Both the position numbers and the translations under genes were made by a program. The notes under the pieces are model-generated. The model did not search any database and was not told the origin of the DNA. It saw nothing but the letters and a program-made list of their open reading frames with translations. From contig JAUVLC010000004.1 of NCBI GenBank assembly GCA_030595925.1, forward strand, positions 1-45,324: a stretch of DNA of 45,324 nt, read 5' to 3'. Within the stretch, counting starts at the first letter, position 1; every line of letters starts with the position of its first letter. Source of the DNA: Clostridia bacterium (GTDB taxonomy: Bacteria; CBDUZB01; JAGLHV01). Positions 6,352-45,161 of the stretch are shown piece after piece.

Positions 6352-7080
6352 GTGGTTAATGCAAATGATAGTAGTAAAAAAATTGTTTATAATTATAAGT
6401 TTGTACTAAATAATAGAGTGGAAAAGGAATTCAGAGTCTTACTTGACGCTAAAACTTTAAATTTAGTTCGAAAAGAAAATAGAAAAAGATATCCTGAGTG
6501 GACGAAATTAGCTTTTTTTAAATGTCCTAATTGTTCTTTGGATGAAAAACAATATAGATTTTGTCCTGTTGCAGTAAATATGATTGAAATAATTGATTTT
6601 TTTTCCGGGTTTAAATCTCATAACGAAGTTGATGTTATAATTGAATCAGCAGCAAGAAAATATATAAAACATGTTACGTTGCAAAAAGGTTTAAGTTCTT
6701 TAATCGGCATATGTATGGTTGCTAACGATTGTTCTATTATGGCAAAAATGAAGCCAATGGTTCGTTACCATTTACCTTTTGCGACTCAACAAGAGACGAA
6801 ATATCGAGTAGTGTCAATGTATTTACTTGCGCAGTATTTTTTATGGAAGCATGGTAAAAAACCGGATTGGGAATTAGAGGAATTAGTTAAAATCTATAAT
6901 GATATTCAGATTGTAAACAAGAACTTTGGTAAGAGATTTTCAGCTATTCAAGGCAAAGATGCAAATGTTAATGCTCTTGTTCTTCTTGACTGTTTTGCTG
7001 ATTTTGTTGTAGTTTCAATAAATGAAAATATAATGGAAGATATGAAAGTGTTATTTAACATATATTTTGAACCGGAATAG
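6352..7080 (+). CDS. Uncharacterised protein with C-x2-C-x9-C motif, copy 1
   Basis: This is a soluble 242-residue protein that I can relate only to an uncharacterised family (I think DUF6901, from memory). Features are an N-terminal YNYKFVLNNRVEKEFRVLL strand region, then PEWTKLAFFKCPNC with C58, C61 and C71, which could bind one metal. After that come a conserved MKPMVRYHLPFATQQETKYR segment and KIYNDIQIVNKNF. No signal peptide or membrane segment is seen. The start is GTG at 6352, with AGAGGT upstream. A diverged paralogue lies at 10306-11037, with two accessory genes between the copies. No function is known to me. Confidence 0.72.
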   Translation: MVNANDSSKKIVYNYKFVLNNRVEKEFRVLLDAKTLNLVRKENRKRYPEWTKLAFFKCPNCSLDEKQYRFCPVAVNMIEIIDFFSGFKSHNEVDVIIESAARKYIKHVTLQKGLSSLIGICMVANDCSIMAKMKPMVRYHLPFATQQETKYRVVSMYLLAQYFLWKHGKKPDWELEELVKIYNDIQIVNKNFGKRFSAIQGKDANVNALVLLDCFADFVVVSINENIMEDMKVLFNIYFEPE

Positions 7081-10305: not shown

Positions 10306-11037
10306 ATGGCAATGAACAATATAATTGAGGATAGTGATAAACTTATATATTGCTATAAGTTTATATTTAACAATGGAATGGAAAAAGAATTTAAAATCGT
10401 TCTTGATAAAAAAAATTTAAGTTTAATTCAAAGAGAAGAAAGTAAAAAATATCCTGAATGGGCAGAATTAAAATTTTTTAAATGCCCTAATTGTCTTTTA
10501 GATGAAAAAAAACATAAGTTTTGTCCAATAGCAATAGGCCTTGTTAATGTATTTGAATCTTTTTCTTCTCTTATTTCTTATGATAAAGTAACTGTGATAA
10601 TCGAGACTGAAGCAAGAAAATATATGAAACATACTACAGTGCAAAATGCTTTGAGTTCTTTAATAGGTATATACATGGTTACCACAGGGTGTCCTATTAT
10701 GGAAAAATTGAAACCTATGATTTGTTATCATTTGCCTTTTGCTACGGAAGAAGAAACGAGATATCGAGTATTAACAATGTATTTATTTGCACAATATTTT
10801 TTATTCAAAAAAGGAAAGAAACCGGATTGGGAATTAAAAAAATTGACTAATATTTACAATGATATTCAGATAGTTAATAAAAATTTTTGTAAAAGGATTT
10901 CCGCTATTCAAACTGAAGATGCAAGTATTAATGCCCTCATTGTCCTTGATTGCTTTGTTAGTTTTGTGACATTTGCAATAAATCAAAAAATGCCGGAGCA
11001 AATAGAAAATTTGTTTAATGCTTATTTAGAAAATTAG
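10306..11037 (+). CDS. Uncharacterised protein with C-x2-C-x9-C motif, copy 2
   Basis: This is a 243-residue paralogue of the protein at 6352-7080. It shares the same block order: CYKFIFNNGMEKEFKIVL, PEWAELKFFKCPNC with C60, C63 and C73, LKPMICYHLPFATEEETRYR, and NIYNDIQIVNKNF. The two look clearly homologous over their full length but well diverged at both ends, which suggests an old duplication. It has its own promoter. No membrane segment or known catalytic motif is visible. The flanked glycosidase and rhomboid-like genes may be functionally linked, but nothing here proves it. Confidence 0.72.
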   Translation: MAMNNIIEDSDKLIYCYKFIFNNGMEKEFKIVLDKKNLSLIQREESKKYPEWAELKFFKCPNCLLDEKKHKFCPIAIGLVNVFESFSSLISYDKVTVIIETEARKYMKHTTVQNALSSLIGIYMVTTGCPIMEKLKPMICYHLPFATEEETRYRVLTMYLFAQYFLFKKGKKPDWELKKLTNIYNDIQIVNKNFCKRISAIQTEDASINALIVLDCFVSFVTFAINQKMPEQIENLFNAYLEN

Positions 11038-13813: not shown

Positions 13814-14350
13814 ATGAAATTTATTGAGTTGGTAAAAAAAAGATGTAGTGTGAGAAAATATTTATCCAAGACAGTGTCCAGGGAAGTTATAAATAGATGT
13901 TTGGAGGCGGCAAGGCTTGCACCATCGGCTTGTAATTCTCAACCATGGAGTTTTATTGTCATTGATGATGAGAAAACAAGAAATAAGTTTGCAGAAAAAG
14001 TGTTTTCCGGTATTTATTCTTTGAGTTCATTTGCGAAAACAGCTCCGCTATATATTGTTGTTGTTACTCAACAGTCTGGTTATGCTGCACGTCTGGGTGG
14101 TTATTTTAAGGGGACACAATATAGTTTAATTGATATTGGCATAGCTTGTGAGCATTTTATATTACAAGCTACTGAGGAGGGATTGGGAACTTGTTGGTTG
14201 GGGTGGTTTAATGAAAAAAAAGTAAAAGAGGTTTTAGGTATATCTGGTGGAAAAAAAGTTGATATTATAATTAGTATGGGATATGCCGATACTTCTTGTT
14301 TGCCTGATAAAAAAAGAAAGTCATTAAAGGAAATTAGCCGATTTTATTAA
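13814..14350 (+). CDS. Nitroreductase family protein (FMN)
   Basis: This is a 178-residue FMN-dependent oxidoreductase of the nitroreductase fold. FMN-binding residues are seen in KKRCSVRKYLSK at the N-terminus and APSACNSQPWSFIVID near residues 36-51. The C-terminal GLGTCWLGWF and GYADTS segments also fit. Many relatives reduce nitro compounds, quinones or flavins, but the true substrate cannot be read from sequence. It starts four bases after the lipoprotein gene. The length is at the short end of the family, like many thermophile and clostridial versions. Confidence 0.9.
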   Translation: MKFIELVKKRCSVRKYLSKTVSREVINRCLEAARLAPSACNSQPWSFIVIDDEKTRNKFAEKVFSGIYSLSSFAKTAPLYIVVVTQQSGYAARLGGYFKGTQYSLIDIGIACEHFILQATEEGLGTCWLGWFNEKKVKEVLGISGGKKVDIIISMGYADTSCLPDKKRKSLKEISRFY

Positions 14351-14357
14351 ATTCAAT

Positions 14358-14493
14358 GAGACTTAGAGTTTTTATTTGAAAAAACTCTGTAGTCGAATTG
14401 ATCCTTCGACTACTGAACGAAGTCGGAGGGTATTATTTAGTAAAAATAGAGACTTAGAGTTTTTATTTGAAAAAACTCTGTAGTCGAATTGAT
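14358..14493. repeat. Two 45-base direct repeats, each encoding a hairpin
   Basis: Copy 1 is 14358-14402 and copy 2 is 14449-14493, identical by eye. Each can fold with AGAGTTTTT against AAAAACTCT and an outer GACT/AGTC. Each is followed by a CTTCG...GTCGGAGGGT tail. In copy 1 the tail forms a short hairpin (CCTTCGACT/AGTCGGAGG). In copy 2 the tail is interrupted by about 28 extra bases. Confidence 0.75.
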
Positions 14494-14548
14494 TCTTCGG
14501 CACTTCGTTTTGCTCAGCATAAACTTTCTTGAAAGGAGTCGGAGGGTT

Positions 14549-14625
14549 CCCCGCAGTTTGTTGTGCAAAAGTTATGAGAGATAAACCTTTGATATCTCGC
14601 AGTAATGCTGCGGGGTGGCTTTTTT
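14549..14625 (+). terminator. Structured terminator or small RNA 3' end
   Basis: CCCCGCAG (14549-14556) pairs with CTGCGGGG (14608-14615), enclosing GAGATA/TATCTC, and TGGC plus six T residues follow (14620-14625). CGCAG (14598-14602) can instead pair locally with CTGCG (14608-14612), so two folds compete. It may end the nitroreductase transcript or a separate small RNA. The competing pairings recall an attenuator, but no aptamer is recognised. Confidence 0.5.
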
Positions 14626-14652
14626 AAAGATTGTCTTTTGATGGATTTTAAC

Positions 14653-27049: not shown

Positions 27050-27634
27050 ATGATAAAGTTTACTTCTCATAGCTTTAACAAAGAACGCTTTTATTGGATT
27101 AGCCTGATTATTCTTTTTATGATTTTAGTTTCTATCGTATTAATTAACAATGTTTATAATAAAAATAAATTAGTTGATATTCAACAGCGGGAAGAAGGGT
27201 TACTTACAGAAATTAAACATTGGAAAAAGTCATTAGTGCAGAAAGAAAAGTTATTACATTCTGAACTTCAACAAGATAAGGGGTTAGTTTCGGAAGTTAA
27301 CCGGTTGAAAAAATTATTAGTGCAAAAGGAAGAGTTATTACAGTCTCAACTTCAAACTCAATTTTCTGATGAAGAAATAAACCAACTAAGGGAAAAAGGT
27401 TTTCAGGACCCTATTAAAGATATAATTAATGACCTGAGGGAACATGAAGAATTAATTTTTTACAAAGGGGTTTTAGGTGGCACGATGCATTTTGCTGATA
27501 TATATGTTTTATGTTCTAAGTGGGTTTGTGCATCATTTGACAATGGTCATATTGACGGAAAAATGCTATTGAAATATAGCGTTTCAAAGAGAGGGGTGCT
27601 TTCCTGGGAAATTATTGATTCGTATTTGGATTGA
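27050..27634 (+). CDS. Uncharacterised membrane-anchored coiled-coil protein, copy 1
   Basis: This is a 194-residue protein with one N-terminal membrane helix (about 14-33), a coiled coil (about 40-100) and a C-terminal globular domain. The coiled coil contains a near-repeat, WKKSLVQKEKLLHSE and LKKLLVQKEELLQSQ, absent from copy 2, so it arose by internal duplication. The C-terminal part shows IFYKGVLGGTMHFADIYVL, WVCASFDNGHIDGKMLLKY and SWEIIDSYLD, which I do not recognise as a named domain. AAAAGGAGA precedes the ATG. The second gene of the cassette follows. Confidence 0.7.
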   Translation: MIKFTSHSFNKERFYWISLIILFMILVSIVLINNVYNKNKLVDIQQREEGLLTEIKHWKKSLVQKEKLLHSELQQDKGLVSEVNRLKKLLVQKEELLQSQLQTQFSDEEINQLREKGFQDPIKDIINDLREHEELIFYKGVLGGTMHFADIYVLCSKWVCASFDNGHIDGKMLLKYSVSKRGVLSWEIIDSYLD

Positions 27635-27734
27635 TAAATAATTGGTAGAGAAAAGAAATGAAACAATTTATATAAAACATGCTATCCGGGAGCAAAAAGA
27701 TTAAAAATGTCAAGAGAGTTTTAGTTATGGTTTG

Positions 27735-28022
27735 ATGTTTTTTCTGATTATAATAGGTCTGTTGTTCATTTTGGATGAATCTTTACTGATGGGTCTATTA
27801 TCTATTACCATTATTTTTGTTTCTTTGTTCATAATGGTTTATTCCTTTTGGTCCAGGTGTATTTGTAAATTAGAGTTCTATGTGCATATTTTATCGGGTA
27901 AAATAACAAAATTCCTTTCGCTTAGAAAACCAAACTATTATTTTATCAGATATATTTTAGGCGTAGTAATATCTTTAATAGTTTTTAGTTGTGTCACTTC
28001 AATTTTGGTTTTAGAAGAATAA
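27735..28022 (+). CDS. Small hydrophobic protein, cassette gene B copy 1 (probably truncated)
   Basis: This is a 95-residue membrane protein starting at ATG 27735 (a TTG codon lies just before it). It has an N-terminal hydrophobic stretch, a conserved centre (MVYSFWSRCICKLE, GKITKF) and a second hydrophobic stretch. Compared with the copy at 28865, there is one extra base near codon 85, which shifts the frame to an early stop at 28022. Homology of the DNA continues past that stop, but the Cys-rich tail of copy 2 is partly deleted. It may be decaying. Function unknown. Confidence 0.5.
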   Translation: MFFLIIIGLLFILDESLLMGLLSITIIFVSLFIMVYSFWSRCICKLEFYVHILSGKITKFLSLRKPNYYFIRYILGVVISLIVFSCVTSILVLEE

Positions 28023-28323: not shown

Positions 28324-28815
28324 ATGATAAAGTTTACTTCTCATAGCTTTAACAAAGAACGCTTTTATTGGATTAGCCTGATTATTCTTTTTATGATTTT
28401 AGTTTCTATCGTATTAATTAATAATGTTCATAATAAAAATAAATTAGTTGATATTCAACAGCGGGAAGAAGAATTAATTGCAGAAATTGAATATTTTAAA
28501 AAATCGTTAATGAAAAAAGAACAATTATTACAATCTCAGCCAAAATTATACAATTGGGAAATAGAACAATTAAAGAAAAGGGGATTGAAAGAACCTGTTA
28601 AAAATATAATTGACGATTTGAAAAAACGCAAAGAGTTGATTCCTTATCAAGGAATGAGATTTTATCCTGAAAGTTCTATTCATGTTTTAACTCCCAAATG
28701 GGTTTATGCATCATTGGATGATGGACATATTTGTGGGCAGATGTTGCTGAGATATAAAGTTTCAAGGAAGGGAGATATTTCCTGGGAAGTTGTTGATTCC
28801 TATTTAGGAAGATGA
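28324..28815 (+). CDS. Uncharacterised membrane-anchored coiled-coil protein, copy 2
   Basis: This is a 163-residue paralogue of the protein at 27050. The first 50 residues are the same apart from one or two positions. Then the coiled coil is shorter (one KKSLMKKEQLLQSQ unit), and the C-terminal domain is clearly diverged while keeping LIPYQGM, IHVLTPKWVYASLDDGHI, GQMLLRYKVSRKG and SWEVVDSYLG. The AAAAGGAGA ribosome site and the leader are shared with copy 1. One membrane helix with the domain probably outside the cytosol is the simplest topology. Function unknown. Confidence 0.7.
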   Translation: MIKFTSHSFNKERFYWISLIILFMILVSIVLINNVHNKNKLVDIQQREEELIAEIEYFKKSLMKKEQLLQSQPKLYNWEIEQLKKRGLKEPVKNIIDDLKKRKELIPYQGMRFYPESSIHVLTPKWVYASLDDGHICGQMLLRYKVSRKGDISWEVVDSYLGR

Positions 28816-28864
28816 TTAATGGTTAAAAAGATAAAATTATAATTGGGCTCTTATACATTTTGGT

Positions 28865-29212
28865 TTGGATGATTTTTTACGTCTATTGCCATTGTTTTTT
28901 ATTTCTTTGCTCATAATGGTTTATTCTTTTTGTTCCAGGTGTATTTGTAAATTAGAATCCTGTGTGTATGTTTTACCGGGTAAAATAACAAAATTTATTC
29001 CTGCCCGAAAACAGGGTAATTATTCTTATAAAGATATTTCGGCATTAATAATATCTTTAATGGTTTTGCTTGTATTCCCTCAGTTTTGGTTATGGAAAAA
29101 TAAATTTTTTTTGATTGTTTTTTGGTCATTATTTATTATGACAGTTGTTGAAGTCAGGTTGTTTGTTTGTAAAAAATGTAATAACGAAAAATGTCCTTTC
29201 TTTCCCTCCTGA
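28865..29212 (+). CDS. Small membrane protein with Cys-rich tail, cassette gene B copy 2
   Basis: This frame of 115 residues opens with TTG at 28865, a doubtful start without a good ribosome site. It shares LIMVYSFCSRCICKLE and PGKITKF with copy 1, has two hydrophobic stretches and ends in FVCKKCNNEKCPFFPS, a possible metal knuckle absent from copy 1. The DNA upstream aligns with the N-terminus of copy 1 but with a net loss of seven bases, so the N-terminal frame is shifted here. Whether a full protein is made is unclear. Confidence 0.45.
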   Translation: MDDFLRLLPLFFISLLIMVYSFCSRCICKLESCVYVLPGKITKFIPARKQGNYSYKDISALIISLMVLLVFPQFWLWKNKFFLIVFWSLFIMTVVEVRLFVCKKCNNEKCPFFPS

Positions 29213-29375: not shown

Positions 29376-30727
29376 TTGATTAATTATAAAGGCAAGAAAA
29401 TTTCAATATTAGGTATGGGGTCCAGTGGAATAGCTTGTGCTAATTTATTAGATAGTTTAGGTTCTGACGTTTTGATTAGTGATATAAAAGATAAGAATAA
29501 GTTAAAGAATAGTATAAGGAAAATTTCTTCGGGAATTAGAATTGAAACAGGGGGCCATACTAAAAAAATCCTTAATGCAGATTTAATTATTCCCAGTCCG
29601 GGGATAGATACAAACTTTCCTCTATTGCAGGAAGCCGCGAAAAGAAATATTCCTCTTTTAAGTGAAATAGAAATAGCTTTTTCTTTAATAAATGCAGAAT
29701 TGATAATTGCTATTACCGGAACCAATGGTAAAAGTACTACGACATCGTTAATAGGAGAAATCTTTAGAAAAGCGGAAAAAGATGTTTTAGTGGGAGGTAA
29801 TATAGGAATTCCCTTTTCTGATTTAGTAAACAAGGTAAAAAAGAATACGGTTTTGATTTTGGAGATAAGCAGTTTTCAGTTAGAAAGGATAAAAACTTTT
29901 AATCCGCATATTGGTATTATTTTAAACATAACGCCTGACCATTTGGAACGGCATAAAAAGATGGATATTTATGCGGGTATTAAAGCGGACTTGTTTAAAA
30001 ATCAAACATCTGCTGATTTTTGTATTCTGAACGGAGAGGATCCTTATTGTGTGAAGATTGCGAAAAGAATAAAATCACAAATTATTTTTTTTAGCCGCAA
30101 AAACCAATTGAAAAAAGGGGTATTCATAAAAGAAGAAAAGATTTTTTTTGATTTAAAAGGTATTTTTTATGATTTCCTGCCTTTGTCCATTTCCAGCATT
30201 AAACTTCCGGGGATGCATAATTTAGAGAATATATTAGCTGCTTCCACAGTGGCTATTGTTGCAGGAATAAAACCGGAAATAATAGGAGAAACACTTAAAA
30301 GTTTTTGCGGACTGGAACACCGGTTGGAATTTGTAAAAAAATAAAAGGCGTAAAATACATAAATGATTCCAAGGCGACGAATGTTTCTTCTACCCTGGTA
30401 GCAATAGAAAGTTTTCCTTCTGAAATTATTTTGATTATGGGTGGAAGAGATAAGGGAAGCGGTTATCTTCCGTTAAAAAAATTAATAAGGGAAAAAGTTA
30501 AATTATTAATTGTTCTGGGTGAAGCGGGTGATTTGATAAAGGAACAGTTAAGTGGCGTTGCTGAAATAATAAAAGTATCCGGAGTTAGAGATGCAGTGGA
30601 GGTAGCTTATAAAAATTCTGATAGACACGACATTGTTCTTTTTTCTCCGGGTTGTTCCAGTTATGACCAATTTAAAAATTTTCAGGAAAGAGGACGATTT
30701 TTTAAATCCGAAGTGGAAAAAATATGA
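29376..30727 (+). CDS. murD: UDP-N-acetylmuramoylalanine-D-glutamate ligase, interrupted by an apparent -1 frameshift
   Basis: MurD adds D-Glu to UDP-MurNAc-L-Ala in peptidoglycan synthesis. The N-terminal domain opens with ISILGMGSSGIACANLL, and the ATP loop is AITGTNGKSTTTSLIGE. ISSFQLE, ITPDHLERH and GMHNLENILAA follow. In frame 0 the protein stops at 30342-30344, right after EFVKK. The conserved C-terminal ligase domain (KYINDSKATN, LIMGGRDKG, FSPGCSSYDQF) continues in the -1 frame to 30727. The joint falls at an A AAA AAA heptamer. Start TTG 29376 has AGGAG upstream. It overlaps ftsW by ATGA. No other murD is in the window. Confidence 0.85.
30335..30341 (+). other. Slippery A AAA AAA heptamer at the murD frame change
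   Basis: In frame 0 the codons are GTA AAA AAA TAA, so the heptamer A AAA AAA is in exactly the register required for -1 slippage, and the stop codon is the very next codon. After slippage the reading goes on as ATA AAA GGC into the C-terminal domain. No upstream Shine-Dalgarno-like booster or close downstream hairpin was seen. The nearest small hairpin, CTACC/GGTAG, is about 50 bases away. Confidence 0.6.
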
Positions 30728-31818
30728 GGAAATATTGGCATTCTCCCAATAAAGTGTTATTTCTTATTACCTGTGGTTTGGTGGTTTTTGGGGTAATAAT
30801 GATTTATAACGCTAGTGCGATAATGGCTGAAAGAAGATTTGGTGACAGTACGCTTTTCCTTAAGAAACAGTTGTTCTGGGCTATTATGGGATTGTTTGTA
30901 ATGATTGCTGTAAGTAAAATAGATTATAATCTTTGGCAGAAATTATCTCCCTTCCTGTTGATTATTTCTTTTTTCCTTTTATTAGCTGTATTAATTGTTG
31001 GCAAAGAAATAGGCGGAGCCCGTCGTTGGCTAAAATTGTGGGTTTTTACTTTTCAACCCTCGGAATTTGCTAAAATAGCAATGATAATTTATTTTGCCCG
31101 TTCTTTAGATAAGAAACGGGCTAAACTAAAAGATTTTAAGATAGGGGTATTACCCCATTCAATAATTTTAGGTATTTTCTTCGGTTTGATTTTAATAGAA
31201 CCTGATTTGGGGGGAGCAATCATTTTAGCCAGTGCAGGTTTGATTATGTTTTTTATGGGTGGGGTAAAATTGCTTCATTTGTCTTGTCTTGGTTTGGTAA
31301 TGTTGTTTTGTGCCTCTATCTCTATTATTATATCTGATTATAAGATAAGAAGGGTTTTAGGTTTTCTTAATCCCTGGGCTGATCCTCAAAGCAAGGGATA
31401 TCAGATTATTCAGTCATTTACAGCACTTGGGTCAGGAGGGATATTTGGCCGGGGATTGGGAAATTCACAACAGAAATTATTTAATTTACCTGAATCTCAT
31501 ACCGACTTTATTTTTCCCATTATCGGAGAAGAATGGGGATTTGTCGGGACATTAACAATAGTATTTGTTTTTATTGTTTTTGCTTGGCAGGGGAGAAAAA
31601 TTTCCCTGAAAGCACCGAATCTTTTTGGTAGTTTACTCGCGGCAGGTATTACTTTTTTAATTACTTTTCAGGCGATACTTAATATTTCAGTAGTAACTGG
31701 TTGTTTGCCGACAAAAGGATTGGCGTTGCCTTTTTTGTCTTTTGGCGGTTCTTCTTTAATGTTTAGTTTAATCGGAGTAGGTATTTTGTTGAATGTTTCC
31801 CGACAGACGAAATGTTAA
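30724..31818 (+). CDS. ftsW: Septal peptidoglycan polymerase FtsW (SEDS family)
   Basis: This is a polytopic membrane glycosyltransferase that polymerises lipid II at the division site with a class B PBP. The 364-residue length is normal. Typical segments are VIMIYNASA in the first helix, GGARRWLKL, FQPSEFAK, LILIEPDLGGAI, RVLGFLNPWADPQSKGYQIIQS, GGIFGRGLGNSQQKLFNLPESHTDFIF and the last LPFLSFGGSSL. The longest of these identifies SEDS proteins clearly, and the location between murD and murG favours FtsW over RodA. Its ATG overlaps the murD stop. Confidence 0.94.
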   Translation: MRKYWHSPNKVLFLITCGLVVFGVIMIYNASAIMAERRFGDSTLFLKKQLFWAIMGLFVMIAVSKIDYNLWQKLSPFLLIISFFLLLAVLIVGKEIGGARRWLKLWVFTFQPSEFAKIAMIIYFARSLDKKRAKLKDFKIGVLPHSIILGIFFGLILIEPDLGGAIILASAGLIMFFMGGVKLLHLSCLGLVMLFCASISIIISDYKIRRVLGFLNPWADPQSKGYQIIQSFTALGSGGIFGRGLGNSQQKLFNLPESHTDFIFPIIGEEWGFVGTLTIVFVFIVFAWQGRKISLKAPNLFGSLLAAGITFLITFQAILNISVVTGCLPTKGLALPFLSFGGSSLMFSLIGVGILLNVSRQTKC

Positions 31819-43968: not shown

Positions 43969-43976
43969 TTAAAGAC

Positions 43977-44130
<154 letters not shown>

Positions 44131-44757: not shown

Positions 44758-45161
44758 GGTTGATATTGTTTAATAAAAGATAGTCCATAGACAGAAACTA
44801 CAGTTATAAGTTATTAGTTATGAGTTAAAAACAAAAACAGATAGTCCATAGTCCACAGTCGATAGTCCATAGATAAAGACAAAAACACAGAATAAATACT
44901 AAATTCGAAATCCGAAATTCTAAACAAATACAAAATTCAAAATACAAAATTCAAAACAAAAGGCTCAAAGTTAAAAGATGAAAAAATAAGTTGAAAAAAA
45001 TTGGGAATTTGCCTGTCCGCCAGTCAGTAAGGCGGGAAGTTTGAAGTTGGGAGTTTAAAAGATAGTCCATAGATAACAGATAAAAGAAAGTTATTAGTTA
45101 GTAGTTATGAGTTATAAGTTAAAAAATTTGAAATTTAAAATTAATATAAACGGAAGATAAA
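44758..45161. repeat. Mosaic of short heptanucleotide arrays
   Basis: No gene is seen. Period-7 runs are 44802-44829 (4 x AGTTAtn), 44843-44870 (4 units AGTCCAT type), 44901-44956 (8 units of AAATTCG and TACAAAA/TTCAAAA type) and 45089-45123 (5 x AGTTAtn). A CCGCC/GGCGG hairpin lies at 45017-45035, similar to the one at 780-798. Confidence 0.8.

Follow-up and report, generated by a model that had tools for sequence, protein, structure and literature searches.

The murD gene on the forward strand of a 45,324-nucleotide stretch of contig JAUVLC010000004.1 from a Clostridia bacterium (the whole stretch is called the window here) is read in two frames that meet at a run of seven adenines (A7). 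The most probable explanation, to which we give a probability of about 0.92, is that one A was lost from an in-frame run of eight (A8), as a consensus or assembly error, as a minority variant or as a very recent mutation.

MurD across the two frames

Frame 0 of murD has its probable start at the TTG at position 29376, preceded by AAAAGGAG, and is broken after residue 322 of MurD, where it ends with GTA AAA AAA TAA at 30333-30344 (GTA at 30333-30335 and TAA at 30342-30344). The A7 run forms an A_AAA_AAA heptamer in the slippery register, and the -1 frame has no stop between 30299 and the one at 30725-30727 (Table 1). A first-pass annotation had described murD (29376-30727) as split at this heptamer directly before a stop, with the C-terminal ligase domain in the -1 frame, and both the sequence and the domain matches agree with that description.

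Table 1. Coordinates of murD and its downstream neighbour in the window.
Feature	Coordinates	Strand	Basis
murD, frame-0 part (N-terminal and central ATPase domains, to the premature TAA)	29376..30344	+	MurD_N, complete Mur_ligase_M; TTG start behind AGGAG
A7 run at the frame break; A8 in the nearer sister species, where murD is in one frame	30335..30341	+	Sequence and comparison with relatives
murD, -1-frame part (C-terminal glutamate-ligase domain, to the normal stop)	30335..30727	+	Mur_ligase_C
ftsW-like gene, in ATGA overlap with the stop of murD; usual operon neighbour	30724..31818	+	Translation inspected

The gene was compared with the families TIGR01087, PF08245 and PF02875, and the Pfam N-terminal, middle and C-terminal domains of MurD are all present. 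Of the 441 positions of the TIGR01087 profile, 1-314 are matched in frame 0 and 311-440 in the -1 frame. The frame-0 part scores 272.5 bits, above the family cut-off of 211.95, which places it in MurD. Within the frame-0 part, Pfam finds the MurD N-terminal domain and Mur_ligase_M (residues 113-293, covering profile positions 1-200 of 200). Mur_ligase_C scores 37.5 bits in the -1-frame part alone and 44.7 bits when the two parts are read through as one protein. The gene thus resembles MurD (UDP-N-acetylmuramoylalanine--D-glutamate ligase) in all its domains, in the P-loop region GTNGKST, HRLEF and NDSKATN, which are spread over both frames, and in its dcw-type neighbourhood (ftsW, murG, murC, murB, ddl, ftsQ, ftsA and ftsZ), but its frame is broken by a one-base loss in an A run. 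The first-pass annotation had found no other murD in the window; a TIGR01087 search of the genome likewise gave no second intact copy, as all other matches score weakly and fall short of the murD cut-off.

murD in sister species and the age of the break

The collection searched contains two further genomes of the phylum, G001 and G002, both of the same genus. The murD of G002 (JAGLYT010000040.1) is 93.3% identical in nucleotides to that of the window over the 1042 bp shared. It reads GTA AAA AAA ATA AAA GGC, with A8 at exactly the place where the window has A7, and is one uninterrupted frame; this difference in run length is the sole frame-changing indel between the two genes. The murD of G001 (83% DNA identity over the alignment) reads GTA AGA GAA ATA AAC, has no A7 run and is also in one open frame. 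More widely, no internal stop was found in murD genes of 49 other genomes, nor among the approximately 150 rows in the matches listed, which leave off the weakest matches. Judged from these alignments, the comparison shows that one base was lost relative to the ancestor, A8 being the ancestral-type run.

To place the break in time, changes on each branch were counted over 345 murD codons with G001 as outgroup. There are 12 nonsynonymous and 13 synonymous changes on the branch to the window genome, and 25 and 17, respectively, on the branch to G002. These counts are small, and neither side of the break shows signs of decay. The absence of decay is compatible with all three of an error, a very recent mutation and rescue of the gene, and does not separate them. 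The earlier view that a dead gene is unlikely is therefore upheld in part: it fits the lack of decay, yet no decay would be expected from a consensus error or after a very recent mutation either.

We note that the phylum is represented by three genomes in this collection, all of one genus, and is thus a poorly sampled deep lineage.

A runs and frame breaks in the genome

The draft genome consists of 193 contigs, and about 260 kb of its other stretches were sampled beside the window. A runs of 7-9 nucleotides number 91 in the window. Long open frames sampled from the genome, 222 kb in all, contain 424 A runs of at least 7 nucleotides, and 223 of these 424 include an A_AAA_AAA whose first base is at codon position 3, which is the slippery register. 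Because the genome is AT-rich and such runs are everywhere, a slippery heptamer at a break within an A run is expected and is no coincidence that needs explanation. Any one-base loss from an A8 that leaves AAA AAA in frame will mimic a slippery site, so the heptamer adds almost nothing as evidence, and the motif alone should not count in favor of programmed frameshifting.

Over 84 kb of coding sequence covered by G002, including 237 A/T runs of at least 7 nucleotides, murD has the only internal frame break. The other non-triplet gaps listed in this comparison lie upstream of true starts, at gene ends or in dubious open reading frames, or compensate each other. Similarly, an ab initio scan for frame switches within genes (306 kb, 281 coding-like open reading frames) gave no further internal break; its other candidates, recognized by eye without a family search, we take to be adjacent different genes (for example dxs/tlyA, mreC/mreD, rplP/rpmC and glyA/MraY-like). 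A frameshift-rich genome, whether from long-read errors or from an endosymbiont-like state, is ruled out, as no other internal break was found in the sequence compared and scanned. The assembly is not error-ridden, and the genome is not endosymbiont-like with many poly-A frame breaks.

Origin of the lost base

These observations are best explained by an ordinary single-frame murD carrying an A8 run, from which one A was lost in this assembly. The loss may be an error of the consensus or the assembly, a variant carried by a minority of the population, or a genuine replication-slippage mutation of very recent date; in most cells of the living population murD is presumably in frame. Of these, a consensus error or minority variant seems more likely than a recent real mutation, although this choice among sub-causes is inferred. 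The authors of GeneTack expected singleton frame breaks validated by BLASTp to be mostly sequencing errors (PMC3711429).

Three points weigh against the loss of an A from A8 in this assembly. With an otherwise clean genome, errors at A runs must be infrequent, which would make one in murD a rare accident. The consensus sequence alone was examined, and A7 may stand in the true genome. Finally, murD is essential and present in a single copy, and a genuine null mutation in it would be surprising.

The first-pass annotation had offered programmed -1 frameshifting, RNA polymerase slippage and a one-base loss side by side. The in-frame A8 of G002 favors the last of these, whereas programmed frameshifting is not supported, as no relative needs a shift, G001 lacks the run and no stimulator was found.

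Slippage, recoding and split-gene explanations

Alternatively, A7 may be real and fixed, and full-length MurD would be made at a reduced level if RNA polymerase slipped and added one A, or if ribosomes slipped spontaneously on A_AAA_AAA. We regard this as very improbable. The run is in the slippery register, the C-terminal part shows no visible decay, and reports of such rescue in AT-rich endosymbionts cover information-processing genes as well (PMC3017870), so that leaky slippage would be a known phenomenon if A7 is real. However, the heptamer lacks a stimulatory structure, and in E. coli unstimulated X_XXZ_ZZN heptamers exceed the background without a motif (~0.055%) by at most ~10-fold (PMC4066793). 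In a large proportion of genomes, selection against transcriptional slippage becomes evident once runs are nine nucleotides long (PMC1088944), a length that the murD run, at 7, does not reach; for transcriptional realignment, the GeneTack authors refer to A runs of more than seven (PMC3711429). By these published standards, an unstimulated A7 is a weak slippage site. High spontaneous slippage would also penalize the 223 heptamers in slippery register in the sampled open frames. In the homopolymer indels of Blochmannia and Buchnera (PMC3017870), as in murD here, a single-base poly-A frame break interrupts a gene that is otherwise intact, and the genome is AT-rich, but there several genes per genome are affected, rescue has been proposed and the genome is rich in runs of at least 9, whereas here the run is 7, the break is isolated in the sample and it is known from DNA sequence alone. 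That A7 is fixed in the species and the essential ligase MurD is made only through slippage on the run is very improbable. Were A7 indeed fixed and rescued, an essential cell-wall gene would rely on slippage outside insect endosymbionts. As it stands, the break matters little. What it shows is that a one-base loss from an A8 run in an AT-rich draft genome can be expected to leave a perfect slippery heptamer where the frame breaks.

Regulation of MurD synthesis by programmed -1 ribosomal frameshifting is rejected on comparative evidence and has almost no probability left. Of the features by which it is recognized, namely a heptamer in register, a stimulator and conservation in relatives, murD has only the first, with a perfect A_AAA_AAA directly before the stop. 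The heptamer sequence and register are like those of programmed cassettes (dnaX and the IS911/IS3 type A_AAA_AAR; PMC4066793), but the murD site has neither stimulator nor conservation, and the relatives need no shift. The 99 nucleotides downstream fold less stably than shuffled sequences (z = +1.38, with 185 of 200 shuffles folding at least as well; pseudoknots are outside the model), and no Shine-Dalgarno-like stimulator core was found at the usual spacing upstream of the heptamer. The first-pass annotation had likewise found no obvious hairpin or Shine-Dalgarno. The site is not conserved, and none of the other murD genes listed has an internal stop; the single-frame murD of G001, without a slippery run, is the very observation that the first-pass annotation had named as refuting its reading of the site. 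A literature search on murD with frameshift and slippery site returned nothing relevant.

A true split of MurD into two genes, with the C-terminal domain translated separately, is hardly credible either. The downstream frame does contain a TTG ahead of the stop, at 30305, but an AGGAG that ends ~15 nucleotides upstream of it is not well spaced, and no start codon with its own ribosome-binding site was found near the junction for the C-terminal part. The next starts in the -1 frame lie ~90 nucleotides past the stop, within the conserved domain, and the genes of the sister species are fused in one frame. Phase variation was set aside, given a short run in an essential gene and relatives that are in frame.

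Neighboring genes and other features of the window

Downstream of the ftsW-like gene are intact genes that we take, from their translations by eye, to be murG, murC, murB, ddl, ftsQ, ftsA and ftsZ. No internal frame break was found from the ftsW-like gene to ftsZ when compared with G002. Directly upstream of murD, a two-gene unit is tandemly duplicated (27050-28022 and 28324-29212); the first genes of the two copies share 55% identity across 196 aligned positions and have an almost identical membrane segment at the N terminus.

Elsewhere in the window, two similar paralogues of an uncharacterized cysteine-containing protein (6352-7080 and 10306-11037) lie on either side of genes that appear by eye to be rhomboid-like and glycosidase-like. 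A dispersed intergenic repeat at 14346-14628 has many partial copies in both G001 and G002. A second type of intergenic repeat consists of arrays of degenerate 7-base units (AGTCCAT, AGACAAA and AGTTATT/AGTTATG) at 43975-44130, 44766-44880 and 45048-45124. Copies of these heptanucleotide arrays are found on many contigs of G001 and G002, and they form a dispersed repeat system of the genus.
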